A stretch of 64,000 bases of DNA from assembly GCF_020295405.1 (NCBI RefSeq), contig NZ_JADEYP010000008.1, forward strand, positions 62,001 to 126,000, given 5' to 3'. The position numbers were made by a program, and so were the translations under genes. Positions 3,103 to 31,919 of this stretch are shown here, in pieces. Numbering within the stretch: position 1 is the first letter of the stretch; every line of letters starts with the position of its first letter. The notes below the pieces were generated by a model, which made no database searches, was not told the DNA's origin, and saw only the letters and a list, made by a program, of their open reading frames with translations. Origin of the DNA: Sphingobacterium bovistauri. GTDB taxonomy: Bacteria; Bacteroidota; Bacteroidia; Sphingobacteriales; Sphingobacteriaceae.

Positions 3103-3247
3103 GATGCTATAATTATTGGCTAAAAACGTATTGTTCTCGTTTCAGTTTTCTATCTATTTTTAGATTATTCTTGAATTATAAAATTCATAGAATATTAACT
3201 TTCTTACTTTTTAGTGAGTGGATCGCCAATATAAACTATCAAATAAA

Positions 3248-11897: not shown

Positions 11898-14414
11898 ATG
11901 AGAGTTGTTAAACATATTATTCTGAGTTCAATAGCTATATTGATTCTCCTATCCAAAGCTTTTTCAACAGAAATTTATGTGGGTATACATAGTGAAAAGC
12001 TTGATAGAGACGGTAGTATGTCTTCTCCATATGCTAATTTGGAGGATGCATTGCGACAAGTTAGAGAATGGCGTCGCCTTGGTGATCCAAAAATAAAATC
12101 TGCTGTTTATATTCTGGTTAAAGACGGGGTATATCGGCCTAGTCAACCTATTCTAATTCGGCCTGAAGACTCAGGAACTTTACAAAGTCCGACTTCCATT
12201 AGAGGTTTGGGGGATAAAGCTGTGTTTTCTGGAGGTATTACTGTCAAAGGTTGGAGGAGAGTTGGGAAAAATAATCTTTTTGGTGAAAAGCATTTCAAGA
12301 ATATTTATGTCGCTGATGCACCTAAAGTAGGAGGTAGATATTTTCCTTTTCGTCAGATGTGGGTTGGCGATACTAAAGCTATTCGTGCCGAGAGTCATTC
12401 CGATTACGAATTGCCTAGAATTCTTAATTGGAATTTTAAGGAACAAACAGCTACCATTCCAAATGTATTTAAGAATATCGAGTTTAAAGATGGAATGGAG
12501 TTTTTTATTCATCAATGGTGGGCTATAGCTCAGCTTAGAATAAAAGAAGCCATTGTTAAAAAAGATAGTATAGTTTTATCCTTTCATGATCCTGAAAGCA
12601 AAATTCAAAGTGAACATCCTTGGCCTAGTCCTTGGTTATCTAAAGAAACAGGAAATTCCGCATTTAGGTTGGTGAATTCAATCCAGTTTTTAGATACTCC
12701 GGGAGAATGGTTTCTTGATGAGCAGGATCATAAGATCTATTATTATAAGCGAGATAAAGAAGATTTAGAAACTTCGGAAATAGTAGTTCCTTATTTAGAA
12801 ACGATTTTAGAGTTGAGGGGGACATTAGAAAACCCTGTATCACACATTCATATTGAAGGATTAAATTTTAAGCATAGTTCTTGGATTAGACCTCATTACT
12901 TCGGGCACGTTGCCTTGCAGGCAGGAATGTATTTTATAGACGCTTATAAATTAGAAACACCTGGTACTCCTGATAAAAAGGGGTTAGAAAATCAGGCTTG
13001 GGTAGGAAGACCGAAATCAGCAATAGTTTTATCACACACAAAACAGAACGAAATTTCAAATTGTAAATTCACACATTTAGCCTCTACAGCGGTTGACTTT
13101 GAAGAAGCAAATTATAAAGATTCTTTTACAGGAAATCTAATTAAGGATGTGGGTGGAAATGGTGTTTTGGTCGGTAAATTTTCGGACGAACAATTTGAAG
13201 CACATCTACCATATCATCCGAAAGATGAACGTATTGTCTCTGATGGGGTTTCGATTGAGAATAATCTTATACATAACGTGTGTAATGAAGATTGGGGTGC
13301 TGTTGGGATAGGTGTTGGATTTGCACGAAATATCAATATTCTAAATAATGACATTAGTGATCTTGCTTATACAGGAATTAGTGTAGGATGGGGCTGGACA
13401 CCAACTATCAATATTAGTAAGAATAATATCGTTAAGGAAAATAGAATTACTAGGTATGGAAAATTTATGTATGATGTAGCTGGAATATATACTTTGTCAG
13501 CACAACCTGGTACAATCATTCAAAATAATCTTATCGATAGCATTTATTTATCTCCATATGCACATATTCCAGATCATTGGTTTTATCTCTACACTGATGA
13601 AGGATCTGCTTATATGAATATTTCGGACAATTGGTATCCAGAAAATAAAATCTTAAAAAATGCTAATGGACCTTCAGTAGAATGGAAAGAAAATGGACCA
13701 CAAGTAGACTTGGCTAAAGTGGCAAATGCTGGATTATCTTCAACATATAGATCCCTTCTGAAATATCAAAACAAGGTAGAAGATAGATCAAAATTTAATA
13801 AACATATTCCTTTTGACAAACCCGTTTATGTCCAAATTAGTGACCCTGACGGGTCAATTTCAGCGAAATCTTTAGAAAGTTTTATCCAAAGGCAAGGTGC
13901 AGAAATTAAACAAATTTATCGTTGGAAAGGCTATACATTGCTCAAGACCACAGACGATATCGCTCAAAAAATATCGAGTGCTTGGAAAGCTGATTTTCCC
14001 GCTGTAAAGTGTAAAGTATTTAAAGAGATTTTCTATTCATTTGAATCGAAACAGCACTGTCCAACAAATTCTGAATCAGACGAAGAAGATTTTGTAATAC
14101 TTACAGCTCAGTTAGTTGATGACCCAAATAAACGTGACCAATATTATCAATATCATAAGGATCAGTTTGAACAATGGCCAGAAATTTCCAAAGGATTTTG
14201 TAATGCTGGATTTAATGATGTGACGATGTACAGAAATGATCATCAACTCTTATTATATATTTCATATCCTAAGGGTAAAAGTTTTGATGAAATAAACGCT
14301 TTGACAACTAAGGATAATCCTAAAGTAGAAGAGTGGAACAAACTTATGAGTACTTTTCAACGAGGTATACAGGGAACAGCAGCAAATGAATCATGGATAT
14401 TTTATAAAAAATAA
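11898..14414 (+). CDS. Beta-helix (GH141-like) protein fused to L-rhamnose mutarotase-like domain
   Basis: 838 residues with a signal peptide ending near KAFST. Residues about 25-610 form a right-handed beta-helix protein resembling GH141-type enzymes: SLxDALxQVRxWR-like start, VYILVKDGVYRPSQPILIRPEDSGT, and later N-rich coils such as ISNCKFTHLASTAVDF. After about residue 640 come two ferredoxin-like units. The second matches L-rhamnose mutarotase (RhaM): YYQYHKDQFEQWPE with His753 and Trp760, and NPKVEEWNKLM with Trp813. RhaM interconverts L-rhamnose anomers. The first unit (VQISDPDGSISAKSLESF) may be a degenerate copy of the same fold. The fusion suggests that the helix part releases, and the C-terminus equilibrates, a 6-deoxy-L-sugar such as rhamnose or fucose. 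Catalytic activity of the helix part is unproven. Confidence 0.72.
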   Translation: MRVVKHIILSSIAILILLSKAFSTEIYVGIHSEKLDRDGSMSSPYANLEDALRQVREWRRLGDPKIKSAVYILVKDGVYRPSQPILIRPEDSGTLQSPTSIRGLGDKAVFSGGITVKGWRRVGKNNLFGEKHFKNIYVADAPKVGGRYFPFRQMWVGDTKAIRAESHSDYELPRILNWNFKEQTATIPNVFKNIEFKDGMEFFIHQWWAIAQLRIKEAIVKKDSIVLSFHDPESKIQSEHPWPSPWLSKETGNSAFRLVNSIQFLDTPGEWFLDEQDHKIYYYKRDKEDLETSEIVVPYLETILELRGTLENPVSHIHIEGLNFKHSSWIRPHYFGHVALQAGMYFIDAYKLETPGTPDKKGLENQAWVGRPKSAIVLSHTKQNEISNCKFTHLASTAVDFEEANYKDSFTGNLIKDVGGNGVLVGKFSDEQFEAHLPYHPKDERIVSDGVSIENNLIHNVCNEDWGAVGIGVGFARNINILNNDISDLAYTGISVGWGWTPTINISKNNIVKENRITRYGKFMYDVAGIYTLSAQPGTIIQNNLIDSIYLSPYAHIPDHWFYLYTDEGSAYMNISDNWYPENKILKNANGPSVEWKENGPQVDLAKVANAGLSSTYRSLLKYQNKVEDRSKFNKHIPFDKPVYVQISDPDGSISAKSLESFIQRQGAEIKQIYRWKGYTLLKTTDDIAQKISSAWKADFPAVKCKVFKEIFYSFESKQHCPTNSESDEEDFVILTAQLVDDPNKRDQYYQYHKDQFEQWPEISKGFCNAGFNDVTMYRNDHQLLLYISYPKGKSFDEINALTTKDNPKVEEWNKLMSTFQRGIQGTAANESWIFYKK

Positions 14415-18497: not shown

Positions 18498-18556
18498 GAC
18501 ATAGAAGGTAAGGATCTATATTAATACAATCCTAAATTACCTTCTATGTCTTTTTT
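18498..18556 (+). terminator. Intrinsic terminator after the GH105 gene, overlapping the iclR 3' end
   Basis: A perfect 14-base inverted repeat (18498-18511 gacatagaaggtaa against 18537-18550) is followed by six T on the plus strand. An inner AGGAT/ATCCT pair (18511-18515 and 18529-18533) can partly extend the stem. The right arm and T-run lie inside the last codons of the minus-strand iclR gene, so the two convergent genes share this DNA. Confidence 0.85.
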
Positions 18557-19288
18557 ACAAGCTAAAAGTGTAGCTATTATTTCATCATTTTGCAACTGTT
18601 CGTTATTCTTAATAGTCAGTAGTTTAGATATAGTCAGGCAAGCCATTATTCCTGAAGAACTATTCCCAATTGGAACTGAAAAATCAATTACGCCTTGCGC
18701 ATATGTACTTGACATTTCTATATAGCCTTGATTTTTAATGATATCTAGGTTTGTTTGAAATTTTTCCTTTTCACTTACAGAAAGGTTTAAATAGCTTTCA
18801 TCTTTGTCAAGTATTTGATTGCGCGTTTCTTTATCCAAAGAACTTAAGAGTATTTTACCAGATGCTGTATTAAAGATGTCATACAAATTTCCCTCTTCAA
18901 TCATTACTGAAATCGGAAAAGGACTTTTACTATAGGCTATAACCAATACTTTATCATTGAATAATACACCTAAATGACAGGGCTCTTTTACAATTAATGA
19001 AGTTTGCTTCATCGGTTGTAGTGCTGCTGAACGAAGCTTTTCAATAAATGATTGATGGTGAGATAAATAGTACAATTTTAGAGTTAGTGAATACTTAGAC
19101 GATATGCCATCTCGGTGTACATAACCTCTAGATTCAAGTGCAGATAACATCCTGTAGATTTCATTAGGACTTTTATTCAAACCTATAGCTATCTCACTTT
19201 GAGATTGAGCAGCAGGCTGTTTTGCAAGAAATTCAATAATATCTAGCCCTTTTTCTAATGCAGGAGCCTTGTACTTATTGTTATCCAT
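18521..19288 (-). CDS. IclR family transcriptional regulator
   Basis: 255 residues, cytosolic. An N-terminal winged helix-turn-helix (PALEKGLDIIEFLAK, QSQSEIAIGLNKSPNEIYRMLSALESRGYVHRD, residues about 8-60) is followed by the IclR effector-binding domain, with ITLKEPCHLG-like and TYAQGVIDFSVPIGNSSSGIMA segments. Members bind palindromic operators and respond to small metabolites, often aromatic or organic acids and sugar acids. The gene is divergent from the susC at 19597, across 308 bases rich in inverted repeats, so it probably controls that susCD-CoA-transferase operon and perhaps itself. It is the only transcription regulator recognised in the window. The ATG is supported by the HTH beginning directly after it. 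Confidence 0.92.
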   Translation of the reverse strand: MDNNKYKAPALEKGLDIIEFLAKQPAAQSQSEIAIGLNKSPNEIYRMLSALESRGYVHRDGISSKYSLTLKLYYLSHHQSFIEKLRSAALQPMKQTSLIVKEPCHLGVLFNDKVLVIAYSKSPFPISVMIEEGNLYDIFNTASGKILLSSLDKETRNQILDKDESYLNLSVSEKEKFQTNLDIIKNQGYIEMSSTYAQGVIDFSVPIGNSSSGIMACLTISKLLTIKNNEQLQNDEIIATLLACKKDIEGNLGLY

Positions 19289-19596: not shown

Positions 19597-22500
19597 ATGT
19601 TAAAGCAAAGTTTACATTTCTATGTGTCAATGTTAGTATTGGTACCTAGTATTTCAAATTTAAAAGCAACAACTGTAGCTTACGAGAAATCCTTATTTCA
19701 ACAAACTCCTATTACATACAAAGGAAAAGTAGTTAATAACACTAACGAACCAATTAATGATGTATCGGTTAAATATGCTGGAAAGACTGTTAAAACAGAC
19801 AACAATGGTAATTTTTCTATTGTATTAGAAAATGCAACAGAAGTGCAGTTTTCTGCAATTGGTTTCCAAACAAATACTGTTTTCATTTCCAAAAATGAAG
19901 AATCAACTATTGTATTACAATCAAAAGATGAGGAATTAGAAGAAGTCGTAGTTGTTGGTTATTCTACACAAAAGAAAGCTAATGTTTCAGGATCAGTTGC
20001 AAGTGTTGATGGAAAGACTCTTAATCAACGACCAGCTCCTAATGCAGGAAATTTATTGCAGGGAAGAATACCCGGCTTGCAAGTAACACAAGGATCAGGA
20101 GAACCGGGAAGAGATTCTCCTGGATTATTGATTCGTGGTAGAGGGAGTTTTGGAAGCAGCGTTTCACCACTGGTTTTGATAGATGGTGTAGTTGGTTCTT
20201 TGCAATCGATATTACCTGCAGATATAGAAAATGTTACAGTATTAAAAGATGCGGCTTCAGCTGCAATATATGGGTCTAGAGCAGCAAATGGTGTTGTTTT
20301 AGTAACAACTAAATCTGGTAAGAAGGGTTCAAGCTCTATAAATTATTCTGTGAATTACGGGAGACATCTTCCAACTGCAGTTCCAGATTTAATTACCAAT
20401 TCGGCTGAATATATGGAAATGTATAATATTGCAGCTCAAAGGTCAGGTATATCCTTTCGTTTTCCAGCTCAAGATATTGAAAAATATAGAAATAGCACCG
20501 ATGATGCTTATCCCAATTTTGATAATATTGATTATTATATAAATAGTGCAAATGTGGTGAACCACAATATATCCCTTTCTGGAGGAGCAGAAAAAAGTAC
20601 ATACAATCTTTCTTTAGGTTATCTTGATCAAGATGGTATGATTGAGGGATATAAATTTAAAAGATGGAATGCTTTATTGAACTATAAAAATGATATCAGT
20701 AAGTACGTCAAAGTAGGAACAATAATTAATGCGACATATAGAGATCGTAAAGAACCACCATTCACCGGTGAAAACATGGCTTTAGCTATTTATGCAGCAG
20801 GTCCACTGTATGGTCCTTTTTTACCAGATGGTAGTGGAAGAGTTGTTTCAAGAGCATACCAAGATGAAGGGCGTAATAGAAATCCTCAAGAATATTATGC
20901 GATGGGTAATCAAAATACAAAAGATTATAATTTAAATGCCCAAGCTTTCATTGAAATTAATCCGTTTAAAGGTTTAACTTGGACAAATAAAGTTGCCATA
21001 AATTATGAAGATAATGTTTATAAAATGCATCAAAAACCATATGACGCATATTTATTGCAGGGACGTGATGCTTCTACTGGTGATTATATAAAATCTTCAT
21101 TTGGACCTGATATTTTAGGTGTTACTGACCAATATTCTAAATCACTAACGCCTACAATTTATTCTGTTTTAAATTATAATACAAGTGTCGGAAATGGTCA
21201 TAATATATCTGCTTTAGCAGGCTATGAGCAAGTGTCCTATAAAATACAAAGTTTAAGAGGACGTCGTACAGCAACGGCCTATCCTAATTTAGATGAATTG
21301 CAGGGATATTTACCTTCAGGAGAGACCCTTTATTTTACGCATCCAAGGCTTCCATCATTAATTACTCCTTCGGAATGGGCACTTCAATCGTTTTTTGCGC
21401 GTTTAGCATATAATTTTCAAGATAGATATATTTTAGAATCCAATTTAAGATATGATGGAACCTCTAAAGTATCTCCTGATTATCGATGGGGGATGTTCCC
21501 TTCAATTTCAGGAGCATGGGTCGCATCAAAAGAAGAGTTCTTTAATAATGCCTTTCCTTGGCTATCGGAATTTAAATTGCGCTCTTCTTATGGAGTATTA
21601 GGTAATCAAGATATTTCAACTTATGCATATCAGAATGTGCTTGATATAAATGGGATATATTATTCTTATGATAATAGCCAATTATCACAGGGAGCAGTTG
21701 TAAATAGGTTTATGGATCAAAGCTTGAAATGGGAATCTACAAGTATATTTAATTTGGGAATCGATGCTACGCTTAAAAATAGAGTATTAGGATTTACGTT
21801 TGATTGGTTTAACAAAACTAGTTTTGATATTCTAGCACAACAACCTATTCCAGCCAGTTTGGGTTTAAGTAGTCCAACGGTTAATGATGGTAAATTACGT
21901 AATAAAGGGATAGAATTAAATCTATTCCATCAATATAAAATTGGTGAAGTTAATTATGGATTGAATGCTATGATTTCAACTGCATACAATGAGCTGTTAC
22001 ATATCCGAGTTCCAAATTATGGGAATAGAATACGTGAGATTGGCCAACCTTTTGATGCGCACTATTTATATGTATGGGATGGTGTTTTTCAGGAAGAAGA
22101 TATCAATAACCCCAATGTTCCTGAGCATCAGTTAAATCCTAATCCTCGTGCAGGAGATTTAAAAATGAAGGATATAAATGGTGATGGTAAGGTTGATGTT
22201 AATGATAGACAGGTAGTGGCGGGAGCTTATCCTGATTTTACCTATTCGTTTGGACTAAATCTGGGGTATAAAGGATTTTCATTAAATGCTTTTTTTCAAG
22301 GTATTGAAGGTGTGAAAAATAGAGTGGAGAATTGGGGGGTTGATCCATTCATGCAGGGCACAGCACCAACTACTGAATGGCGTAATGCGTGGACTGCCGA
22401 AAATAGAAGCAATGAAATTCCTGCTTTATACGTTGCCGGTTATCAGGGCGTTGCTAACTATAAAGCATCTACTTATTATTTGCGTGATGCATCTTATTTG

Positions 22501-22713
22501 CGATTGAAAAACTTAATGTTATCATATGATGTACCTGTAAGTTTTATGAATAAATTAAAAGCAAAGAATGCACAAATTTATTTTTCTGCAGACAATCTAT
22601 TTACTATAACAGAATACAAAGGAGCAGATCCTGAAAGGGCAAGTACTTCGGGGAATTTTGCCCAGTATCCGCAAGCCAAAATATTTAGTTTGGGCGCATC
22701 TTTAACATTCTAA
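19597..22713 (+). CDS. SusC-family TonB-dependent outer-membrane transporter
   Basis: 1038 residues. After a signal region there is a carboxypeptidase-regulatory-like beta domain (ITYKGKVVNNTNEPINDVSVKYAG, residues about 38-110), a TonB-box-like EELEEVVVVGYST, the plug domain (GRIPGLQVTQGSGEPG, IENVTVLKDAASAAIYGSRA) and a 22-strand barrel ending in ...FSLGASLTF with the terminal Phe typical of outer-membrane barrels. It forms a lidded importer with the downstream SusD and takes up an oligosaccharide or other ligand, energised by TonB. It lacks the N-terminal STN signalling domain, so it is not an ECF-sigma transducer. It begins the IclR-linked operon that continues into CoA-transferase genes. 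Confidence 0.93.
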   Translation: MLKQSLHFYVSMLVLVPSISNLKATTVAYEKSLFQQTPITYKGKVVNNTNEPINDVSVKYAGKTVKTDNNGNFSIVLENATEVQFSAIGFQTNTVFISKNEESTIVLQSKDEELEEVVVVGYSTQKKANVSGSVASVDGKTLNQRPAPNAGNLLQGRIPGLQVTQGSGEPGRDSPGLLIRGRGSFGSSVSPLVLIDGVVGSLQSILPADIENVTVLKDAASAAIYGSRAANGVVLVTTKSGKKGSSSINYSVNYGRHLPTAVPDLITNSAEYMEMYNIAAQRSGISFRFPAQDIEKYRNSTDDAYPNFDNIDYYINSANVVNHNISLSGGAEKSTYNLSLGYLDQDGMIEGYKFKRWNALLNYKNDISKYVKVGTIINATYRDRKEPPFTGENMALAIYAAGPLYGPFLPDGSGRVVSRAYQDEGRNRNPQEYYAMGNQNTKDYNLNAQAFIEINPFKGLTWTNKVAINYEDNVYKMHQKPYDAYLLQGRDASTGDYIKSSFGPDILGVTDQYSKSLTPTIYSVLNYNTSVGNGHNISALAGYEQVSYKIQSLRGRRTATAYPNLDELQGYLPSGETLYFTHPRLPSLITPSEWALQSFFARLAYNFQDRYILESNLRYDGTSKVSPDYRWGMFPSISGAWVASKEEFFNNAFPWLSEFKLRSSYGVLGNQDISTYAYQNVLDINGIYYSYDNSQLSQGAVVNRFMDQSLKWESTSIFNLGIDATLKNRVLGFTFDWFNKTSFDILAQQPIPASLGLSSPTVNDGKLRNKGIELNLFHQYKIGEVNYGLNAMISTAYNELLHIRVPNYGNRIREIGQPFDAHYLYVWDGVFQEEDINNPNVPEHQLNPNPRAGDLKMKDINGDGKVDVNDRQVVAGAYPDFTYSFGLNLGYKGFSLNAFFQGIEGVKNRVENWGVDPFMQGTAPTTEWRNAWTAENRSNEIPALYVAGYQGVANYKASTYYLRDASYLRLKNLMLSYDVPVSFMNKLKAKNAQIYFSADNLFTITEYKGADPERASTSGNFAQYPQAKIFSLGASLTF

Positions 22714-22738: not shown

Positions 22739-24286
22739 ATGAGAAAAATTAATCTAAATATATTGATGGGCGTTGCATTTCTATCTCTTTGCAATGTTTC
22801 ATGTGATGGTTTTCTTGATAAAAACCCCTTAATAAGTGTTTCTGATGATATTTTTTGGAATAATGAAGAGGATGTAAAAATTGCTCTAGCAGGAGTATAC
22901 TCAAGGCTTCAAGAAAATTTCATGGGGTATGAAAGAGTATACTATGATGCACTGAGCGACAATGCATTCCCTGATCCTGGAAATAGTAATCAGGCTAATA
23001 TTGGTAGTTTAACAATTGGTGGCATTTCTCCAGGGTTAGGTGGCGCGATGGTAAATATGTACAGTACTCCCTATAAATTAGTGTCATCTGTAAATTATTT
23101 TCTAGACAACATTGATAAAGCAAACTTGGGTGAGAGTAGGGGCAACAATTATAAAGCAGAAGCACGTTTTTTACGTGCATTGGCTTATTTTGAATTAGTT
23201 CAGCAATTTGGAGGTGTAGTAATTTATAGAAATTTCGTAAGTGAGCTTCAAGATGTGAGAATTCCAAAATCGTCAATTGAAGAGGTATATGAATTTATAT
23301 ATGAAGATTTAGATTTCGCAATACAACATCTTTCGAACGAAAAATATAATGGCCATGCTGTAAAGGCTAGTGCACAAGGAATCAAAGCTCGAGCTCTCAT
23401 GGTGCAAAATAAATGGACGGAGGCTATTCCATTGTTACGTGAGATTATTAACGACAATAAACATGGTTTAGCTGATGATTATGCATCAATTTTCACTACG
23501 AATGGACAGGCTAAAGATAATATTAATAAGGAAATATTGTTTTCCACATGTTATCTAGCGCCGAATAATGTACATCGATTAAGGCCTGGTGCTGGAGGTC
23601 TTGACATTGAACTAGGCTGGTATGCATTAATGCAGCCTTATCAAAATCTTGTGAATGCCTATGGAATGAAGGATGGCAAAAGCATTAGTGAATCAAGTTT
23701 ATATGATTCCGAAAAGCCATATGAAAACAGAGATCCCCGTCTATATGCCACTGTAAAACTCCCAACTGATGTTTGGAGAAATCCAAATACTAATGCAGTT
23801 GTGCCTATTTATAATACATATACAGGATTTCATACAAAGAAATATGTTGATCTAAACAGATTACCTTTTACAAATGCAACAGCTGCAATGTCTGATCAGG
23901 ATTATATCCATCTTCGTTATGCCGATATATTGCTAATGCTTGCTGAAGCATTAAATGAGTCAGCAGGACCTTCTATTGAAGCCTACGATTTAGTAGATCA
24001 AATTAGAGGACGAAAATCTGTAAACCTACCAGCTATAGACAAGACAAAATATAGTACACAGAGTGCTTTACGTGAGCAAATTAGAAATGAAAGAAGGGTT
24101 GAGTTTGCTTTAGAGGGACATAGGTATCATGATCTTAAAAGATGGAAAATTGCACATGAAGTTTTACCTAAACTATCTAGTCCTTCTGGTATTCCTTATG
24201 TCTTTGAACAACACAATTATTATTTGCCATTTACGATTACAGAATTAGATAATAATCCTAATCTTATACAGAATGAAGGATATTAA
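22739..24286 (+). CDS. SusD-family surface lipoprotein
   Basis: 515 residues with lipoprotein signal MRKINLNILMGVAFLSLCNVSC followed by DGFLDKNPL. Family marks are the TPR-like helices (NNYKAEARFLRALAYFELVQQFGGV), the RAYNE-type C-terminal region DYIHLRYADILLMLAEALNE, IRNERRVEFALEGHRYHDLKRW, and the final aromatic region. It caps the SusC pore and binds the ligand at the cell surface. It follows susC by 25 bases and precedes the first solute-binding homologue by 36 bases, with no terminator between them, so the metabolic genes downstream are likely on the same transcript. Confidence 0.93.
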   Translation: MRKINLNILMGVAFLSLCNVSCDGFLDKNPLISVSDDIFWNNEEDVKIALAGVYSRLQENFMGYERVYYDALSDNAFPDPGNSNQANIGSLTIGGISPGLGGAMVNMYSTPYKLVSSVNYFLDNIDKANLGESRGNNYKAEARFLRALAYFELVQQFGGVVIYRNFVSELQDVRIPKSSIEEVYEFIYEDLDFAIQHLSNEKYNGHAVKASAQGIKARALMVQNKWTEAIPLLREIINDNKHGLADDYASIFTTNGQAKDNINKEILFSTCYLAPNNVHRLRPGAGGLDIELGWYALMQPYQNLVNAYGMKDGKSISESSLYDSEKPYENRDPRLYATVKLPTDVWRNPNTNAVVPIYNTYTGFHTKKYVDLNRLPFTNATAAMSDQDYIHLRYADILLMLAEALNESAGPSIEAYDLVDQIRGRKSVNLPAIDKTKYSTQSALREQIRNERRVEFALEGHRYHDLKRWKIAHEVLPKLSSPSGIPYVFEQHNYYLPFTITELDNNPNLIQNEGY

Positions 24287-24322: not shown

Positions 24323-25474
24323 ATGAATAGTAAAATACAATTAAAAGGAATAACATGGGGGCATAGTAGAGGATACGTACCAATGGTAGCATCTGCTCAA
24401 CGCTTTGAAGAATTAAATCTAGGTGTTGAAATTATATGGAAGAAACGTACGCTTCAAGAATTTGCAGATAAATCAATTATGGAACTAGCTCATGAATATG
24501 ATTTATTGGTTATTGATCATCCATGGACAGGGCATGCCTCTAAAGAAAATATGTTAGTTCCTTTTGATGATTATCTTTCAGCAGAATATATGCAAGATCA
24601 AAAAAGTAATTCTGTGGGAAAATCATATGAAAGCTATAATTTTCAAAATAAACAATGGGCGCTAGCAATAGATGCAGCTACGCCAGTAGCCGCATCTAGA
24701 GCTGATTTGCTCGAAGAAATGGGGTTGAAAATTCCGGAAAGTTTTGATGAACTTATAGATCTTGCAAAATTGGGTAAAGTAGGATTTTCATTAATACCTG
24801 TAGATGTATTGATGAGTTTTTATATGTTTTGCTGCTCGTTAGGCGAAGAGCCCTGTCAGTCTAAGGACTATGTAATCAGTACAGAAGTTGGAGTAAAAGC
24901 ATTAAAGTTATTTAAGGCATTATCTGACCTAGTTGATGAACGTTTTTATTCTAAAAATCCATTTATGGTTTATGAAGACATGGTCAATAATGATGATATC
25001 GTTTATTGTCCCTTTGCTTATGGTTATTCAAACTATTCAAGACATGGTTATGCAAAAAAGACGTTAACATTTCATGATTTGGTTACTTTAACTGCTGGAA
25101 AACCTATGATTAGTACTTTAGGAGGTGCTGGATTAGCTGTGTCTTCAAAGTCAAAAAATATAGAGCTAGCTGTTAAATACGCTGAATTTGTAGCTTCACC
25201 TATTGTTCAATCTACGATTTATGTTGAAAATGGCGGTCAGCCTGGTCATTTAGCTGCATGGCAGAATGATGTAGTAAATGCAAATAGTAAAAACTATTTC
25301 AAAAATACACTACCAACTCTTCAAAATGCTTATCTACGTCCGCGCTATTATGGACATTTATATTTCCAAGATAATGCCGGTGATATAGTTGTCGACTATT
25401 TGAGATATAGTAAGGATGAAAAAAATGTTCTAGAATCTTTAAATAAATTATATAAAGAATCCCAAGATAAGTAA
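24323..25474 (+). CDS. Solute-binding-protein homologue lacking a signal peptide (copy 1)
   Basis: 383 residues resembling family 1 extracellular solute-binding proteins of ABC sugar importers: LKGITWGHSRGYVPMVASAQRFEEL at the N-terminus, YDLLVIDHPWTGHAS in the first lobe, WALAIDAATPVAASRADLLEEMGL at the hinge, and PMISTLGGAGLAVSSKSKN followed by AVKYAEFVASP in the second lobe. The protein starts where mature binding proteins normally begin; there is no hydrophobic signal or lipobox, and no upstream in-frame extension provides one. No ABC permease or ATPase is nearby. It is therefore probably cytoplasmic, where it may bind or hand over the substrate of the neighbouring enzymes; that role is inference. 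Its stop overlaps the following CoA-transferase start by one base. Confidence 0.8.
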   Translation: MNSKIQLKGITWGHSRGYVPMVASAQRFEELNLGVEIIWKKRTLQEFADKSIMELAHEYDLLVIDHPWTGHASKENMLVPFDDYLSAEYMQDQKSNSVGKSYESYNFQNKQWALAIDAATPVAASRADLLEEMGLKIPESFDELIDLAKLGKVGFSLIPVDVLMSFYMFCCSLGEEPCQSKDYVISTEVGVKALKLFKALSDLVDERFYSKNPFMVYEDMVNNDDIVYCPFAYGYSNYSRHGYAKKTLTFHDLVTLTAGKPMISTLGGAGLAVSSKSKNIELAVKYAEFVASPIVQSTIYVENGGQPGHLAAWQNDVVNANSKNYFKNTLPTLQNAYLRPRYYGHLYFQDNAGDIVVDYLRYSKDEKNVLESLNKLYKESQDK

Positions 25475-26622
25475 TGAAAAAGCCATTAGAAGGATTAGTT
25501 GTATTAGAGTTTTCTCAGTTTTTGGCTGGACCGACTGCTGGTTTACGCTTAGCAGACATGGGGGCTCGTGTTATTAAAATTGAGAGGCCCAATGGAGGTG
25601 ACGCTGGGCGTCAAATTGCTATTAAAAATTTATTTGTAGAGGATAGTAGCCTTGTATTTCATACTATTAACCGGAATAAAGAATCATTTGCTGCCGATTT
25701 GAAAGATCCAGAGGATTTGGCATTAGTTAAGAAATTAATTGAAAAAGCAGATGTGATCACACATAATTTTAGACCTGGTATCATGGAAAAACTTGGGCTA
25801 GATTATGAAAATGTGAAGCTTTTAAATGATAAAATAATATATGCAGTAGTAACTGGGTATGGGACGAAAGGACCTTGGTCAACTAAACCTGGACAGGATT
25901 TATTAGTTCAATCGGTTTCCGGATTAACATGGTTGACAGGAAATAAGCAAGATGGTCCTATTCCTTTTGGTCTATCTGTAGTTGATATGTATTGCGCAAC
26001 GCATCTTACACAAGGCATATTAGCAGCATTAATAAGACGTGCTAAAACAAATAAAAGTGCTTTAGTAGAAGTTAGCTTATTGGAATCTGCTTTAGATATG
26101 CAATTTGAAGTGTTGACATCATTTTTAAATGATGGAAATAAAAATCCAAATAGAAGTGAAATAAGGGGGGCAGGTCATGCTTACCTAAGTGCGCCTTATG
26201 GAATTTATAAAACAACTGATAGTTATATCGCTATTGCAATGGGGGATATTAACAAACTTTTAAATGTACTATCAATTGATGGAAAGGAATACTCAGATTC
26301 AGCAACATGGTTTAGAGATCGTGATACAATATTAAAAATATTAGGAGAGAATATTCTTTCTTGGAATGCTAAAGAATTGGAACTATTGCTTGAAGAAAAT
26401 GGCTTTTGGAGTGCAGAAATAAAAAATTATACGGATTTTCTAAATAGTGATGGATTTTTACAATCTAAGATGTTACATTATGTCAAATTACATTCAGGTA
26501 ATACATTAACTACAACGCGAAGTGTCTATCAAATTGATGGAAAATACTTTTTGAGCGATAAACCTGCCCCTAAAATTGGAGAACATAATGCCGTTATTTT
26601 TAATGATTATTTGAACGATTGA
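25474..26622 (+). CDS. CaiB/BaiF family (class III) CoA-transferase, copy 1
   Basis: 382 residues, cytosolic. The N-terminal signature LEFSQFLAGPTAGLRLADMGARVIKIERP and NRNKESFAADLKDPED lead to ITHNFRPGIMEKLGLDY. The likely catalytic Asp is Asp142 in KPGQDLLVQSVSGLTW. The small domain follows with SAPYGIYKTTDSYIAIAMG. Class III enzymes move CoA between carboxylic acids, forming an acyl-CoA through a mixed anhydride on the Asp. The gene overlaps the solute-binding homologue before it and lies 2 bases before a paralogous CoA-transferase. This suggests activation of an imported organic acid, with the substrate unknown. It could pair with its neighbour as a hetero-oligomer. Confidence 0.92.
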   Translation: MKKPLEGLVVLEFSQFLAGPTAGLRLADMGARVIKIERPNGGDAGRQIAIKNLFVEDSSLVFHTINRNKESFAADLKDPEDLALVKKLIEKADVITHNFRPGIMEKLGLDYENVKLLNDKIIYAVVTGYGTKGPWSTKPGQDLLVQSVSGLTWLTGNKQDGPIPFGLSVVDMYCATHLTQGILAALIRRAKTNKSALVEVSLLESALDMQFEVLTSFLNDGNKNPNRSEIRGAGHAYLSAPYGIYKTTDSYIAIAMGDINKLLNVLSIDGKEYSDSATWFRDRDTILKILGENILSWNAKELELLLEENGFWSAEIKNYTDFLNSDGFLQSKMLHYVKLHSGNTLTTTRSVYQIDGKYFLSDKPAPKIGEHNAVIFNDYLND

Positions 26623-26624
26623 TT

Positions 26625-27767
26625 ATGCTACCTTTAGAAAACTACTTAGTTATTGACTTTAGCCAATTTTTGGCGGGACCATTAGCAAGTTTAAGACTTG
26701 CTGATCTTGGTGCTCGTGTAATCAAGATTGAAAAACCATTAACAGGAGATATTTGCAGACATTTATATACTTCTGATACTATTTTAAATGGTACATCCAC
26801 AGTATTTCATGCGATCAATAGAAATAAAGAAAGTGTTGCTCTTGATATTAAAAATGAAGTAGATAAAGCTGTAATAACAGACTTGATTAAAAAAGCAGAT
26901 GTCGTAATCCATAATTTCCGACCAGGTGTAATGGAAAGATTAGGCTTTGATCAATCAAGTGTAAGAAAGATAAATACGAATGTTATCTATGCAGAAATAT
27001 CAGGCTACGGAGTGGATAACCCTTGGTCAAGTAAACCTGGTCAAGATTTACTGTTACAGTCTATGACAGGTATGACTTGGTTAAGTGGGAATGCTAGTCA
27101 TGGACCCGTACCAATGGGCTTATCTATTGTAGATATGTTCGCTGGATCTAATCTGAGTTCTGCAATACTGGCATGTCTATATCGAAAGGTGATTCATAAT
27201 ATTGGGGCGTATGTACATATATCTATGTTAGATACAGCGGCTGATATTCAATTTGAAGTAATAACGACATATTATCAAGATGGTGGGCAATTGCCTAATC
27301 GTACAGAGACAAGTAATGCTAATGCATATTTAGGTGCGCCATACGGAATATATAAAACTAAAGATGGCTTTCTCACGCTAGCTATGGGTTCTATTCCTCA
27401 ATTGGGGCAGCTATTAGGTTGTGCCCAATTGGGAGAGTTTATGCAGGCATCAGAAGCGTTTGAAAGACGCGATGAAATTAAAAATATTTTAACTAAACAT
27501 CTTCAAAATCAAGATACTGCATATTGGCTAAATATTTTAGAAGCAGCTGATATTTGGTGCGCTGATGTATTATCTTGGAATCATCTGTTTGAGCACGATG
27601 GGTTCAAAGCAGTTGAAATGATCCAAACAGTAAATATGGGTGATGGATTTCAATATGGTACAACACGTTGTCCAATTCGTATTGATGGTAAGCCTATCTT
27701 TTCAGAGCAAGGATCACCGAACTTAGGTGAGCATAATGAACAAATATTAAAAGAGCTTTATGGATAA
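26625..27767 (+). CDS. CaiB/BaiF family (class III) CoA-transferase, copy 2
   Basis: About 380 residues, clearly paralogous to the preceding gene: IDFSQFLAGPLASLRLADLG, VVIHNFRPGVMERLGFD, and Asp141 in KPGQDLLLQSMTGMTW as the likely catalytic residue; the C-terminal part again has GAPYGIYKTKDGFLTLAMG. The start is ATG 26625; an upstream in-frame TTG adds two residues and overlaps the previous stop. Its own 3' end overlaps the next binding-protein homologue by 8 bases. Two adjacent copies may form an interlocked heterodimer or use two different acids; sequence alone cannot decide. Both keep the Asp, so neither looks inactive. Confidence 0.92.
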   Translation: MLPLENYLVIDFSQFLAGPLASLRLADLGARVIKIEKPLTGDICRHLYTSDTILNGTSTVFHAINRNKESVALDIKNEVDKAVITDLIKKADVVIHNFRPGVMERLGFDQSSVRKINTNVIYAEISGYGVDNPWSSKPGQDLLLQSMTGMTWLSGNASHGPVPMGLSIVDMFAGSNLSSAILACLYRKVIHNIGAYVHISMLDTAADIQFEVITTYYQDGGQLPNRTETSNANAYLGAPYGIYKTKDGFLTLAMGSIPQLGQLLGCAQLGEFMQASEAFERRDEIKNILTKHLQNQDTAYWLNILEAADIWCADVLSWNHLFEHDGFKAVEMIQTVNMGDGFQYGTTRCPIRIDGKPIFSEQGSPNLGEHNEQILKELYG

Positions 27768-28983
27768 ATTACGATTTGCGGTCAGAAAATTCGGGCCTTT
27801 TGAGGATGTATTAGAATCATTGTTGAATTCATACAATGAGCTCAACAAAAGCGCAATAGATATTGAATTTGTACCAATGGATTTAGAAGAATTATATTCT
27901 GAATTGATTATAAAGGAAGGTCTTAAATCTGGAATTTGGGATTTGGTACATATTAATACGGACTGGATCTCGAAAGCCCATTCTCAAAATAGTTTACATA
28001 TTCTAAACAATTTTTTAGAAAAAAATCCGGTAGAAGATTACAAAAATGCATGGAGTAAGAGCCTTTTATATTTTCAAAATTTTGATAATGATATTCTAGC
28101 TTTACCTTTTCATGATGGTCCTGAATGTTTAGTTTATAGAAAAGATTTATTCCAAGATCCAAAGGAGAAGGAAAATTTTCAAAAGCAATTCAAGCGTCCA
28201 TTAAAAGTTCCTAAAACATGGGATGAATTTTTGCAAGTAGCATCATTTTTTAATAGACCAGAACAAAATTTATTCGGTACCATTTTCGCAGGTTATCCAG
28301 ATGGGCATAATGCGGTATTTGATTTTTGTATTCAGATTTGGTCGCGGGGGGGAGAGCTTCTAAATAATGACGGGAAAGTAGTTGTTAATAGTCAGATTGC
28401 TGTTCAGGCATTAGATTTCTACAGGCAATTATTTAATAATGAAAACTGTTTGCATTCCCATTCAAAATCTTACGATTCCGTAAAAGCAGGAAATGCTTTT
28501 GCTCAAGGTGAGGTGGCAATGATGGTGAATTGGTTTGGCTTTGCTTCTTGGGCTCAAATTGATAAAGACTCAGCAGTGAAAGGAAACGTTGATATAGCTT
28601 CAATTCCGACAATGCCAGGGATAAAGCCTATTTCCCTTAATGTATATTGGCTTACAGCAGTAGCTACAGGAAGTAGAAATAAGGACCTTGCCTATGATTT
28701 TTTAAAATATTCCATAGGAAAAGAGCAAGATAAATTATTGACGTTAACAGGCGGAGTAGGTTGTAGATTTTCTACTTGGTATGATGAAGAAATCAATTCC
28801 AAAATACCATTTTATAATAAATTAGGTGAATTGCATGAAATCGCAAAAACATTGCCTAAGATAACCAATTGGCCAGAAATAGCTCATATTATAGATAATG
28901 TCGTGACTGAATCTATAACTCAAAATGAGGATAGTTATCTATTATTGTCTATGGCTCAACAAAAAATAAATAGATTAACATGA
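27760..28983 (+). CDS. Solute-binding-protein homologue lacking a signal peptide (copy 2)
   Basis: 407 residues, related to ABC sugar-binding proteins but quite distinct from copy 1. Marks are LYSELIIKEGLKSGIWDLVHINTDWI, ILALPFHDGPECLVYRKDLFQD, VPKTWDEFLQVASFFNRP, and FAQGEVAMMVNWFGFASWAQ, with a C-terminal LAYDFLKYSIGKEQ helix. Residue 1 is directly followed by the first beta-strand (DKLRFAVRKFG), so there is no export signal. It overlaps the upstream CoA-transferase by 8 bases and the downstream oxidoreductase in an ATGA, so synthesis of all three is coupled. No transporter subunits are present. A cytosolic ligand-binding role is inferred; a missed signal sequence is unlikely because the upstream frame lies within the CoA-transferase gene. 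Confidence 0.8.
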   Translation: MDKLRFAVRKFGPFEDVLESLLNSYNELNKSAIDIEFVPMDLEELYSELIIKEGLKSGIWDLVHINTDWISKAHSQNSLHILNNFLEKNPVEDYKNAWSKSLLYFQNFDNDILALPFHDGPECLVYRKDLFQDPKEKENFQKQFKRPLKVPKTWDEFLQVASFFNRPEQNLFGTIFAGYPDGHNAVFDFCIQIWSRGGELLNNDGKVVVNSQIAVQALDFYRQLFNNENCLHSHSKSYDSVKAGNAFAQGEVAMMVNWFGFASWAQIDKDSAVKGNVDIASIPTMPGIKPISLNVYWLTAVATGSRNKDLAYDFLKYSIGKEQDKLLTLTGGVGCRFSTWYDEEINSKIPFYNKLGELHEIAKTLPKITNWPEIAHIIDNVVTESITQNEDSYLLLSMAQQKINRLT

Positions 28984-30053
28984 TACCTATTGAATATAAA
29001 GTAACACTTCCAAAGGTAAATTTACCAATTGTTATAATTGGAGCTGGAGGGATAGTTAGAGATGCGCATTTACCAGCTTATCAAAAAGCAGGTTTCAATG
29101 TATTTGGTATAATCAATAGAACACGTGCCAAAGCCGAGGTATTAGCCCAAGAATTTGAAATACCTCATGTATTTGACACCATAGAGGAGGCTGTGAATAA
29201 TTCTCCAGAAAACACGGTCTATGATATTACGATTATGCCTACTCAGTTTATTGAAACTTTAGAAGCATTACCTGATGGAGCTGCTGTATTGATTCAAAAG
29301 CCTATGGGGGATTATTTCGTTGATTCAAAAGCTATTCTTGAAGTATGTAGGCGTAAAAAACTAGTAGCCGCAATTAATTGTCAGCTTCGTCAAAGTCCAT
29401 TTGTGAATGCAGCAAGATGGCTGGTGGATAATAATTATTTAGGTGAGATTTATGATATGGAAGTTCGGGTTAGCATTCATACACCTTGGGAATTATTCCC
29501 ACACGTAATGATTCACCCAAGACTTGAGATACTATATCATAGTGTTCACTATATTGATTTAATACGTTCTTTTCTAGGTAATCCAATTAGTATCTATGCG
29601 AAAACATTTAAGCACCCAGCAAAAGAGCTCTCCTCGAGTAGGTCTACTATGATATTTGATTTTGGTGATACACTTCGTGCTGTAATTAATACAAATCATG
29701 ATCATGAGTTTGGCGATAAGCATCAAGAAAGTTTTATTAAATGGGAGGGAACAAAGGGTGCTATCAAAGCGAAAATGGGTTTATTGATGAATTATCCGCA
29801 CGGTGTGCCTGATAAATTTGAATATTGTATTAAAGGTGATTCCGAAAATTTGGATTGGGTGGAAGTTCCGTTAGAAGGCACATGGTTTCCAGATGCTTTC
29901 ATCGGGAGTATGGGTAGTTTAATTCGCTTCAAATTGGGTGAAATTGATGTTTTAACTGCCAGTGTGGAAGATGTAATTCACACCATGGCGGTCGTGGAAA
30001 CAGCCTATAAGAGTAGCGAGAATGGGGGGGAATTCATTAATTATTTATTATAA
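28980..30053 (+). CDS. Gfo/Idh/MocA family oxidoreductase
   Basis: 357 residues, cytosolic. The Rossmann motif is VIIGAGGIVRDAHLPAYQKAGF with GIINRTRAKAEVLAQEF after it; the substrate-binding Lys is in LIQKPMGDYF, a variant of EKP; HSVHYIDLIRSFLG holds the conserved His/Asp pair of the second domain. It should be an NAD(P)-dependent dehydrogenase or related hydro-lyase acting on a hydroxylated compound. It is translationally coupled to the second binding-protein homologue and lies 47 bases before the MaoC gene. In a CoA-linked pathway it might oxidise the free acid before activation or a product after it; the order is unknown. It is distinct from the oxidoreductase at 14424. Confidence 0.85.
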   Translation: MIPIEYKVTLPKVNLPIVIIGAGGIVRDAHLPAYQKAGFNVFGIINRTRAKAEVLAQEFEIPHVFDTIEEAVNNSPENTVYDITIMPTQFIETLEALPDGAAVLIQKPMGDYFVDSKAILEVCRRKKLVAAINCQLRQSPFVNAARWLVDNNYLGEIYDMEVRVSIHTPWELFPHVMIHPRLEILYHSVHYIDLIRSFLGNPISIYAKTFKHPAKELSSSRSTMIFDFGDTLRAVINTNHDHEFGDKHQESFIKWEGTKGAIKAKMGLLMNYPHGVPDKFEYCIKGDSENLDWVEVPLEGTWFPDAFIGSMGSLIRFKLGEIDVLTASVEDVIHTMAVVETAYKSSENGGEFINYLL

Positions 30054-30100
30054 ATAATTTGAAATAGACCAATTAAACAGTTATAACTAAATTATAAATT

Positions 30101-30544
30101 ATGCATTTTGAATCGTTATTTTTTGAAGATTATACTCTACAGGATAAAAGGGTGACATTAGGGCGAACAATTACTGAAACTGACTTTGTCGTTCATGCAG
30201 GTCATACAGGTGATTATTTTCCACATCACATGGATGCAGAGTGGTGTAAGACACAGCCATTCGGTCAACGAATCGCGCACGGTACTATGATATTTTCTAT
30301 TGGTATTGGACTTACAGCGTCAGTTATAAATCCTGAAGCTTTTTCAAAAGGATATGATCGTTTACGTTTTGTTAAGCCTGTATTTATTGGCGATACAATT
30401 CATGTCGAAGTGATTATTTCTGAAAAATCTGAAGCTAAAAATCCAGAATATGGAACTGTCATAGAACATGTCAAAGTGATAAATCAACATGGAGATGTGG
30501 TACTGGTCGCTGACCATATATTATTAGCCAAACGTAAAAGTTAA
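30101..30544 (+). CDS. MaoC-like hot-dog fold hydratase
   Basis: 147 residues, the usual length of a single hot-dog MaoC protein. The active-site signature is complete: Asp38 and His43 in [12 protein letters not shown], then [28 protein letters not shown] is the second half of the fold. Family members hydrate trans-enoyl-CoA (R-specific) or run the reverse dehydration, as in mesaconyl-CoA hydratase-type reactions. Its location after two CoA-transferases makes an acyl-CoA substrate likely. No thiolase, CoA-ligase or acyl-CoA dehydrogenase is encoded nearby, so the pathway must be finished by enzymes elsewhere. Cytosolic. Confidence 0.9.
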
Positions 30545-30611
30545 GAAAAGGTATAAGATTTAATAATCATTTATACTGTATGATAAACCAAAATTAAATA
30601 TCAATCTACCA

Positions 30612-31919
30612 ATGCATATCAACACGAGTAATTCAGCAAAAGGAAATGAGTCTTCATCAAAAAAATATCTTTTACCATTTATATTAATTGTAAGTCTATT
30701 TTTTTTATGGGGAATGGCTCACAATTTAAATGGGGTTTTGATTCCTCATTTAAAAAAGGCATGTCAGTTAAATAATAGTCAATCTGCTTTAATCGATACT
30801 TCTGTTTTTCTAGCCTATTTTGTTATGGCTCTTCCGGCAGGATATCTATTGCGAAAAATTGGTTACAAGACATCGATTATTATAGGGCTCTTTGCCTTTT
30901 CAATTGGAGCATTTTTATTTATACCTGCTGCTAATATGCGTATGTATGAAATGTTTTTGGTAGCCTTATTTATTATTGGATGTGGATTAGCAATTTTAGA
31001 AACAGCAGCAAATCCTTACACCACATTATTAGGACCAGCAGAGACTGCTACAAGTAGAATTAATTTAGCGGCTTCCTTCAATGGTTTAGCAGCAATGCTA
31101 GCTCCAATATTGGGGACAATTTTCATTCTTTCAGGAAAAAATTATACTGAGCAAGAATTAAATGTGATGTCAGAACCAGATCGCTTGACATACTTGATGT
31201 CTGAAGCATCATCTGTAAAATTACCTTATTTTATATTAGGATCAGTATTACTAATCGTAGCTATTCTTTTTATTTTTATCAAGCTACCAGAAATCAAGAA
31301 TACAGACTCCCCATCTGATAATGAAAATAGTAATAAAAGTATTTTTTCAGTTTTAGCAAATAGAAATTTAGCATTCGCAGTTATAGCACAGTTTTTTTAT
31401 GTTGGAGCACAAGTCTGTGTTACCAGTTTTTTTATTATGGTAGCGCAACAGGGAGCTGGAGTGGATGAAAAAGTAGCAGGTTATGCATTAGGTATTTATG
31501 GATTGTTATTCATGGTGGGACGTTTTATAGGTACCTTCTTTTTAAAATATATTTCAGCAAAACGTATGCTAGCCATATGTGCCAGTGCGACGATATTACT
31601 TTCGTTGATTGCTATTTTGGGTTCAGGTATGGTTGTATTATATGCCCTAGGTGGTCTTGGATTATTTATGTCAATTATGTTTCCAACTATCTTTTCTTTA
31701 GGGATAATGGGGTTAGGTGAGCAAACGAAATCAGGCTCATCATGGTTGATAATGTCTATAGTTGGAGGTGCTGTTTTTCCATTTTTCATGGGTGAGATTG
31801 TAGATCGTTGTGGAAACATGCAATTTGGATATCTAGTTCCTTTCGTCTGTTACTTAATTATCTTATGGTATGCAACAATTGGTTATAAGAATCCTTTAGT
31901 TGAACCAAAATTAAAATAG
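30612..31919 (+). CDS. FucP-like MFS permease
   Basis: 435 residues with 12 predicted membrane segments. It resembles the FHS/FucP branch of the major facilitator superfamily (L-fucose, glucose/galactose:H+ symporters): FLWGMAHNLNGVLIPHLKKAC in the first helix region, SVFLAYFVMALPAGYLLRKIGYKTSI, and GLAILETAANPYTTLLGP, the family's strongest signature. It should import a hexose or 6-deoxyhexose, though relatives also carry other sugars. It is the last gene of the IclR-linked operon; 280 bases without a clear hairpin separate it from the second susC. In this operon it is the only inner-membrane transporter, so it is the likely route for the SusCD cargo or its breakdown product. Confidence 0.9.
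   Translation: MHINTSNSAKGNESSSKKYLLPFILIVSLFFLWGMAHNLNGVLIPHLKKACQLNNSQSALIDTSVFLAYFVMALPAGYLLRKIGYKTSIIIGLFAFSIGAFLFIPAANMRMYEMFLVALFIIGCGLAILETAANPYTTLLGPAETATSRINLAASFNGLAAMLAPILGTIFILSGKNYTEQELNVMSEPDRLTYLMSEASSVKLPYFILGSVLLIVAILFIFIKLPEIKNTDSPSDNENSNKSIFSVLANRNLAFAVIAQFFYVGAQVCVTSFFIMVAQQGAGVDEKVAGYALGIYGLLFMVGRFIGTFFLKYISAKRMLAICASATILLSLIAILGSGMVVLYALGGLGLFMSIMFPTIFSLGIMGLGEQTKSGSSWLIMSIVGGAVFPFFMGEIVDRCGNMQFGYLVPFVCYLIILWYATIGYKNPLVEPKLK

Follow-up and report, generated by a model that had tools for sequence, protein, structure and literature searches.

A conserved gene module of signal-less solute-binding proteins and class III CoA-transferases, probably connected with 6-deoxyhexose catabolism

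Within a 64,000-nucleotide stretch of the Sphingobacterium bovistauri genome (contig NZ_JADEYP010000008.1, positions 62,001 to 126,000 of the forward strand; hereafter, the window), genes for two solute-binding proteins of the ATP-binding cassette (ABC) transporter type enclose genes for two class III coenzyme A (CoA)-transferases and are followed by genes for a Gfo/Idh oxidoreductase, a MaoC-type enzyme, and a major facilitator superfamily (MFS) permease. An earlier reading of the same sequence (the original prediction) had described this composition, and open reading frames (ORFs) together with family matches confirm it:

24323-25474, + strand: SBP1, signal-less SBP_bac_1 protein of 383 amino acids (aa), the module core (PF01547, 54.6 bits)
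25474-26622, + strand: CAT1, class III (CaiB/BaiF) CoA-transferase (PF02515, 300 bits), catalytic Asp171 present
26625-27767 (26619 if a TTG start is used), + strand: CAT2, class III CoA-transferase (PF02515, 311 bits), catalytic Asp present
27760-28983, + strand: SBP2, second signal-less SBP_bac_1 protein, 407 aa (PF01547, 91.1 bits)
28980-30053, + strand: Gfo/Idh/MocA oxidoreductase, candidate sugar dehydrogenase
30101-30544, + strand: MaoC-type hydratase/dehydratase, PaaZ C-terminal-like, Asp38/His43 present
30612-31919, + strand: FucP-family MFS sugar/H+ symporter (TIGR00885 fucP, 348 bits, cut-off 280)

SBP1 and CAT1 overlap by 1 base (TAATG), CAT2 and SBP2 by 8 bases, and SBP2 and the Gfo/Idh gene by 4 bases; CAT1 and CAT2 are separated by 2 bases if CAT2 begins at ATG 26625 and overlap by 4 bases if it begins at TTG 26619. 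The spacing first reported (overlaps of 1, 8, and 4 bases plus a 2-base gap) is, thus, correct on the assumption of the ATG start. The permease falls below the cut-off of a second FucP model, PRK10133 (329 bits versus 427).

A similarity search with SBP1 returned 91 relatives, of which 80 loci were retained, 78 of them from Bacteroidota; the closest belong to Sphingobacterium (L003-L017). The order SBP1–CAT1–CAT2–SBP2 occurs in all 78 Bacteroidota loci, so that an absence of conserved linkage, which would have spoken against the original prediction, is refuted. The full seven-gene order (ignoring intervening genes) occurs in 75 of the 78, the exceptions being two loci at a contig edge and one with a split SBP2, and the arrangement is therefore not due to chance. 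Its distribution is patchy, in that two sampled genomes of the same genus lack an SBP1 match: in a sample of the phylum, 22 of 395 Bacteroidota genomes match SBP1 (19 strongly, at E <1e-100, and three weakly, near 1e-4). SBP1 relatives occur, besides Bacteroidota, in Paenibacillus-like Bacillota and in Proteobacteria, and the module is present in Flavobacterium johnsoniae (L045) and Sinorhizobium meliloti. Among 104 genomes of the family to which the Gordonibacillus genome belongs, 66 match SBP1 at E 0.001, 28 of them strongly (E 1e-61 or better); after broken or short same-clan pieces in G488 and G463, the next matches start at 5e-11. Plasmid records contribute 164 matches, and 60 of these, sampled evenly by rank, show a break between full-length relatives of ~31-53% identity and a tail (22.6% identity, 72% of the query); the only record read from this tail (L124) has ABC permeases and ATPases behind its solute-binding protein. 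On the S. meliloti plasmid pSymB (NC_003078.1, 732462-733577; L105), the CoA-transferase and SBP1 genes overlap by 4 bases, and the PLSDB table lists no gene there.

Gene content was counted by tblastn around SBP1 at 125 loci (87 from Bacteroidota, 24 from Bacillota, and 14 from Proteobacteria), which comprise 80 of the 91 relatives, 15 of the 164 plasmid records, 22 of 33 strong places in the Gordonibacillus family, and 8 of 19 strong places in the phylum sample. The Bacillota group consists of L080, L081, and the family assigned to the genome of L080, and L124 and short search loci were excluded before counting. These loci are not independent (55 of the 125 derive from Flavobacteriaceae [39] or Hymenobacteraceae [16], and two represent the same S. 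meliloti locus), and since all were picked by similarity to SBP1, the counts show the companions of SBP1 and not the reverse. With 6 kb as the distance used throughout, SBP1 has a class III CoA-transferase nearby at 122 of the 125 loci (86/87 in Bacteroidota, 23/24 in Bacillota, and 13/14 in Proteobacteria), and at 97 the two genes share a strand and are spaced between a 60-base overlap and a 30-base gap, with SBP1 preceding the CoA-transferase in 84 and following it in 13. L120 carries its CoA-transferase on the opposite strand. MaoC or crotonase genes accompany SBP1 at 116 loci (83/87, 24/24, and 9/14, in the same order), Gfo/Idh genes at 83/87, 13/24, and 4/14, SBP2 at 80/87, 6/24, and 1/14, and lactonase genes at 38/87, 7/24, and 4/14. 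Judged from these gene neighborhoods, conserved linkage of the module genes is close to certain.

Neither binding protein appears to be exported. As the original prediction had it, the two lack signal peptides: the window frames leave at most 12 open codons upstream of the SBP1 start (395 versus 383 aa) and 3 upstream of the SBP2 start (410 versus 407 aa), too few for a signal peptide, and no export signal was found in either protein from these frames and from N-terminal hydrophobicity, taken as the best 10-residue mean within the first 35 residues. SBP1 and SBP2 score 0.63 and 0.55 on this measure, versus 2.04-2.64 for exported controls (SusC, SusD, and three ABC solute-binding proteins); because the cytosolic Gfo/Idh protein scores 2.7 (and CAT1, likewise cytosolic, 1.76), hydrophobicity alone is weak evidence. 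When all 125 SBP1 genes are read from the start nearest the conserved N terminus, the mean is 0.91 and the maximum 2.28 (in L189, at a doubtful extra start); fewer than 15 open codons lie upstream in 60 of them, and the upstream extensions of the other 65 fall outside this test. The SBP1 proteins of all three phyla open nearly at once with the first strand and a TWxHxRG motif (positions 11-17). SBP2 of Bacteroidota has a short N terminus ahead of R(F/I)AVRKF, with the longest ORF starting farther upstream in L026, L029, L031, and L077, and the printed N-terminal stretches of SBP2 from six Bacillota loci and one Croceibacterium locus display no signal-like sequence.

Nor are transport partners at hand. 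The two SBP_bac_1 genes of the genome (4.05 Mb) are those of the module, and its two BPD_transp_1 genes lie on another contig in a gene order read as phosphate pst; the originally reported lack of an ABC partner extends, then, to the whole genome, within a BPD_transp_1 search that does not cover ribose-type permeases. ABC permeases are absent within 6 kb of SBP1 from all 87 Bacteroidota loci and present in 10 of 24 Bacillota and 5 of 14 proteobacterial loci. A separate solute-binding protein accompanies the permeases in the annotated proteobacterial loci and in several Bacillota ones, although none was identified beside the permeases of L185, L199, and L203. From these comparisons, it is close to certain that both binding proteins lack export, and the cytosolic reuse originally proposed for them stands, given the sequence tests, the missing ABC partner in the genome, and the near-constant CoA-transferase companion. 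The names "extracellular solute-binding protein" and "ABC transporter substrate-binding protein" are probably wrong, in both place and role, for many of the genes that bear them, which would mislead transporter predictions whatever the mechanism.

The binding proteins have the fold of sugar binders. AlphaFold models of SBP1 (pLDDT 93.1, pTM 0.90) and SBP2 (pLDDT 93.5, pTM 0.89) find transporter-type binding proteins as their nearest solved structures: for SBP1, the sugar binders 1eu8 (trehalose/maltose-binding; VIA Z 37.5, root mean square deviation 2.8 over 374), SmoF 7ofy (37.4), and MalE3 6dtq (37.3) are in effect tied, and for SBP2 the nearest are 6dtq, 5iai, and 1eu8. The 50 Foldseek and 50 VIA matches listed are transporter-type binding proteins; the absence of a cytosolic enzyme among them proves nothing. 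SBP1, thus, has its family, fold, and some pocket positions in common with ABC sugar-binding proteins but, unlike them, has no signal peptide and, in the Bacteroidota loci, no neighboring permease. At 47 positions of SBP1, conservation reaches 90% or more in Bacteroidota, Bacillota, and Proteobacteria alike; D65, D117, Y235, Y238, and R339 do not vary in any of 126 sequences, H66 and R341 are found in 125, and R42 in 123. A profile alignment to the alpha-glycoside-binding protein 6jai places D65 on D70 and R339 on R356, A269 (Thr, Ala, or Val across the family) on W287, and A119 on D118, the weight of R356, W287, and D118 in sugar binding being taken from the titles of mutant entries. The pocket region is therefore strongly constrained and differs from that of the 6jai disaccharide binder, and the Arg and His residues in it would be compatible with an acid ligand.

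The conserved residues also invite the view that SBP1 is itself an enzyme on a binding-protein fold (as are thiaminase I and MqnA), with a sugar acid or its CoA ester as substrate. The His, Arg, Asp, and Tyr residues retained across three phyla and the replacement of the 6jai tryptophan W287 by Thr, Ala, or Val fit such a role, but the conservation suits a binder equally well, and in an ordinary binding protein the residue aligned with R339 is one that was mutated in sugar-complex entries; we consider an enzymatic SBP1 improbable.

The catalytic residues of the CoA-transferases and of MaoC, presumed from alignment to known enzymes, are intact: the Asp of CAT1 (D171) is retained in 221 of 222 CoA-transferase sequences, including both window copies (L204 has Glu), and the Asp38/His43 pair of MaoC, that of (R)-specific hydratases/dehydratases, in 108 of 108. 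CAT1 and CAT2 share 46% identity. Both resemble known class III CoA-transferases (succinate-hydroxymethylglutarate, 9br6; formyl-CoA, 10uh) in their full-length matches and catalytic Asp but differ from them in their linkage to solute-binding proteins and in scoring far under the cut-offs of the NCBIfam class III equivalogs (SUGCT, oxalate, formyl, mesaconate, and carnitine; best 211 bits versus a cut-off of 750), so that the family alone gives no substrate. In 10 Hymenobacteraceae loci (L025, L026, L029, L030, L031, L036, L038, L046, L062, and L077), CAT1 and CAT2 are naturally fused into one frame of ~790-815 codons. That both are retained, adjacent, and sometimes fused suggests a heterodimer, an arrangement recalling the two-subunit benzylsuccinate CoA-transferase (9fn0). 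The module MaoC resembles the MaoC/PaaZ C-terminal hydratases in sequence and in its Asp/His pair but differs from them in its sugar-catabolism context; it matches 4ffu over its full length (E 1.1e-61) and PaaZ less strongly. The 4ffu entry, presumably from S. meliloti, was deposited as an "oxidase", and its listing names no reaction. Several loci (L080, L113, L186-L188, L190, L193, L194, L210, L213, and L214) encode, besides the short MaoC, a second, longer MaoC-type protein (~173-188 aa), whose Asp/His pattern is unlike that of the short one in the four sequences printed.

The genes that recur around the module (mutarotase, lactonase, RhaT/FucP, 2,4-diketo-acid hydrolase, and rhamnose genes) point, by sequence, to the oxidation of 6-deoxyhexoses or similar sugars to acids as a common theme. 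In the Flavobacterium locus L041, divergent genes encode an L-fucose dehydrogenase (350 bits, cut-off 300), an L-fuconolactonase-like protein (244, cut-off 400), a 2,4-didehydro-3-deoxy-L-rhamnonate hydrolase-like protein (376, cut-off 500), a short-chain dehydrogenase/reductase (SDR), and a Zn-alcohol dehydrogenase. The Sphingobacteriaceae locus L210 carries, on one strand, genes for a rhamnose-mutarotase-like protein, MaoC, SBP1, CAT1, CAT2, a lactonase-like protein, RhaT (316 bits, cut-off 468), Gfo/Idh, a second MaoC, an SDR, and a diketo-acid-hydrolase-like protein. No classical dehydratase lies within the module gene set of either locus; elsewhere in the L041 genome, the two MR_MLE genes above cut-off were read as menC and a dipeptide epimerase and the sole UxaA as a galacturonate-cluster gene, and one ILVD gene is present. 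In Rufibacter, an annotated RhaT takes the place of FucP. Clusters of Martelella, Roseibium, Nitratireductor, and Shinella combine the module with a rhamnose mutarotase, an MR/MLE enzyme, and a solute-binding protein, distinct from SBP1, that has its own permeases and ATPase; the first three also contain a FAH-family hydrolase. In a variant that has crotonase (Variovorax, Pseudosulfitobacter, and S. medicae), the genes encode an aldose epimerase, an SDR, a CoA-transferase, SBP1, and crotonase; Variovorax and Pseudosulfitobacter add a FAH-family gene.

These surroundings resemble those of the nonphosphorylative L-fucose/L-rhamnose pathway, which proceeds through a dehydrogenase, a lactonase, a dehydratase, a 4-dehydrogenase, and a 2,4-didehydro-3-deoxy-acid hydrolase. 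Similar genes surround the module in Flavobacterium, L210, and several Alphaproteobacteria, where the dehydrogenase, lactonase, 4-dehydrogenase, and hydrolase accompany it (mostly by similarity or annotation); in the window itself, of the oxidative-pathway genes, only the Gfo/Idh candidate adjoins the module. To our knowledge, this pathway employs no CoA-transferase, MaoC, or cytosolic binding protein, all of which the module has. Participation in 6-deoxyhexose catabolism is, overall, probable. The original prediction had instead proposed a compound set free from the polysaccharide, either an acid or an acyl compound; a sugar acid made within the cell is the likelier substrate, because Gfo/Idh, an L-fuconolactonase-like lactonase, mutarotase, and RhaT/FucP recur around the module.

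We propose, at a probability of roughly 40%, that the module forms a cytosolic, CoA-dependent branch of the catabolism of rhamnose/fucose-type 6-deoxyhexoses, the substrate and chemistry of which we infer. The sugar would enter by FucP or RhaT and be converted in the cytosol, by the Gfo/Idh enzyme and a lactonase, to an aldonic acid; SBP1 (and SBP2) would bind this acid and hold it for, or present it to, a CAT1/CAT2 heterodimer, which would transfer CoA to it from a donor such as succinyl-CoA; MaoC (or crotonase in the variant) would remove water from the resulting 3-hydroxyacyl-CoA; and its product would feed into the diketo-acid route already known to lead to pyruvate and lactate. Such a branch would handle a sugar acid that is beyond the reach of the ordinary dehydratases of these operons. 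A direct partnership between SBP1 and the CoA-transferases is plausible on the conserved gene arrangement, and the elimination chemistry is offered as a proposal. In its broadest form, the idea is that the solute-binding proteins are dedicated substrate-binding subunits of a cytosolic CoA-transferase and, with MaoC or crotonase, make up a CoA-thioester route for sugar acids in at least three phyla, as an alternative to metal-dependent aldonate dehydratases; this wider version is tentative and somewhat doubtful.

Several observations weigh against the CoA-dependent branch, the most serious being loci that have dehydratases and three SBP1 loci that have no CoA-transferase. The module of Martelella, Roseibium, Nitratireductor, and Shinella is accompanied by an annotated L-fuconate dehydratase and an SDR, so that a CoA step is unneeded there for fuconate itself, and in Bacillota (L080, L186-L188, L194, and L213) a dehydratase-type MR/MLE gene lies by the importer. 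A galactonate-dehydratase-like MR_MLE gene (306.8 bits, cut-off 311) is found ~4 kb past the hydrolase of L210; it appears to belong to a second oxidative set, encoded on the same strand, that also includes SDR, FAH-like, SMP30-like, and aldehyde dehydrogenase-like genes. The S. bovistauri genome contains a separate L-fucose cluster, complete by similarity (contig C11, ~33.5-41.3 kb; L273), with dehydrogenase, lactonase, hydrolase, SDR, UxaA-type dehydratase, mutarotase-like, and FucP-like genes, and a rhamnulose-phosphate aldolase (RhaD-type) scores above cut-off in 26 of the 28 genomes searched, including that of S. bovistauri. SBP1 occurs with no CoA-transferase within 6 kb in L119, L200, and L208. 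Nine of the 125 loci have neither MaoC nor crotonase within this distance; among these, L031 and L069 end at a contig edge, L046 has MaoC past 6 kb behind an insertion, and L115 and L116 have it farther along the cluster. Finally, we know of no aldonyl-CoA, and six names of the aldonyl-CoA type yielded no paper in the literature searched.

Three simpler accounts fared poorly. That no dehydratase lies near L210 is weakened by the MR_MLE gene just described. Within 6 kb of SBP1, classical dehydratases are found at 1 of 87 Bacteroidota, 2 of 24 Bacillota, and 2 of 14 proteobacterial loci, with several just past this distance; that the module simply replaces a missing dehydratase was rejected as a general rule in view of the annotated L-fuconate dehydratases of the four clusters and the UxaA-type gene of S. 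bovistauri, and is retained only as a second branch for another acid. That the module is the rhamnose pathway of genomes missing the classical one was rejected on the RhaD-type genes (isomerase and kinase were outside this genome-wide search).

The three loci without a CoA-transferase bring forward another explanation: the binding proteins would not be parts of the CoA-transferase but would buffer or sense a 6-deoxysugar, or the corresponding acid, in the cytosol, informing, for example, an IclR regulator, and would share operons with the CoA-transferases because both serve one pathway. In L208, an IclR gene diverges from SBP1, behind which come a hydrophobic protein that has no NCBIfam match and was read as a permease, RhaD (951 bits, cut-off 568), an L-rhamnose isomerase-type protein (503 bits, cut-off 647), and a rhamnulokinase-like protein (55 bits, far under cut-off); this rhamnose aldolase/isomerase/kinase-type set headed by SBP1 is the best natural clue to the ligand of SBP1. 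L119, on a Microvirga ossetica plasmid, has two annotated mannonate dehydratases, a lactonase, and an SDR beside SBP1, which has a 4-base overlap with a mannonate-dehydratase gene, and the annotation of this 19-kb stretch contains no CoA-transferase; L200 combines SBP1 with crotonase and ABC genes. IclR genes also recur beside SBP1 elsewhere, and one lies upstream in the window. Set against this are the CoA-transferases near SBP1 at all but these three loci, mostly adjacent and in both orders, and the absence of IclR from the stretches of several loci (e.g., L209-L212). A buffer or sensor is, as such, unlikely but by no means far-fetched.

The CoA-dependent branch could also end differently, with the carbon chain of the CoA ester cleaved rather than dehydrated: a crotonase/MaoC step would then be followed by release of an aldehyde, for instance lactaldehyde, together with a short acyl-CoA. 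L204, L205, and L207 associate the module with crotonase and an aldehyde dehydrogenase, which in L207 and L204 has as its top-scoring model PRK10090 (463 and 497 bits, cut-off 500), presumably the lactaldehyde enzyme AldA, and in L205 was recognized by similarity. L206 and L120 have the same two genes on the strand opposite to SBP1, and L206 has, in addition, a complete MaoC-type module. The loci concerned are few (aldehyde dehydrogenases were not tallied over the MaoC loci), and chain cleavage has a slim chance of being correct. That the CoA-transferases activate an acyl or organic acid decorating the polysaccharide, and not the sugar skeleton, is very improbable: the window encodes a SASA esterase and a GCE_fung-like protein, and Croceibacterium does carry glycosidases, but in Martelella, Roseibium, Nitratireductor, Shinella, and Thalassospira the annotated neighbors include no polysaccharide enzymes; they are importers, mutarotase, sugar-acid enzymes, and, except in the Shinella stretch, lactonase.

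Every part of the module belongs to a known family and its setting is a recognizable oxidative sugar pathway, but the combination matches no system known to us. In agreement with the original prediction, we found no described pathway of this composition, nor any description of the module, in the literature searched, which leaves out most subscription literature. In the main text of a study of rhamnose regulons that includes Bacteroidetes (PMC3870299), the terms CoA and IclR are absent, and in PMC9007349 "CoA-transferase" occurs once only, for citramalate. If the CoA-dependent branch exists, sugar acids are degraded as CoA esters, and a very large protein family, known for catching nutrients outside the membrane, also serves a purpose within the cell. 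We know of no sugar pathway that degrades sugar acids in this form, and the module may mark a route of sugar breakdown not yet described. It is compact, its candidate ligands are few, and two of its hosts, F. johnsoniae and S. meliloti, are amenable to laboratory work, making it easily testable.

Upstream of the module in the window lie three further genes:

18521-19288, - strand: IclR-family regulator, PcaR/KdgR/BhcR-like but under their cut-offs, divergent from the SusC gene
19597-22713, + strand: SusC-like TonB receptor, 5' of the module, labeled by reading the sequence
22739-24286, + strand: SusD-like lipoprotein, 36 bases 5' of SBP1, labeled by reading the sequence

The attachment of the module to a SusCD operon, noted in the original prediction, is local: the Flavobacterium, Bacillota, and most proteobacterial loci that were read have no SusCD. 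The surrounding region is a pectin-type polysaccharide locus with GH28, GH78, GH106, GH127, GH141-like, GH2, GH95, and GH88 genes. Promoter-like matches in the window are at chance level (65 versus 71.8) and uninformative, as are terminator-like sites, which number 16 versus 7.1 in shuffled sequence, yet all 16 lie inside genes. The listed ORFs at 3218-4150 and 4032-5597 (both + strand) overlap by 119 bases, and the start of the GH28-type gene is probably farther downstream. At 11898-14414 (+ strand), a GH141-like/beta-helix protein bears at its C terminus an L-rhamnose mutarotase domain (PF05336, residues 738-833), so that a domain that cleaves glycans is, unusually, fused to one that flips sugars.

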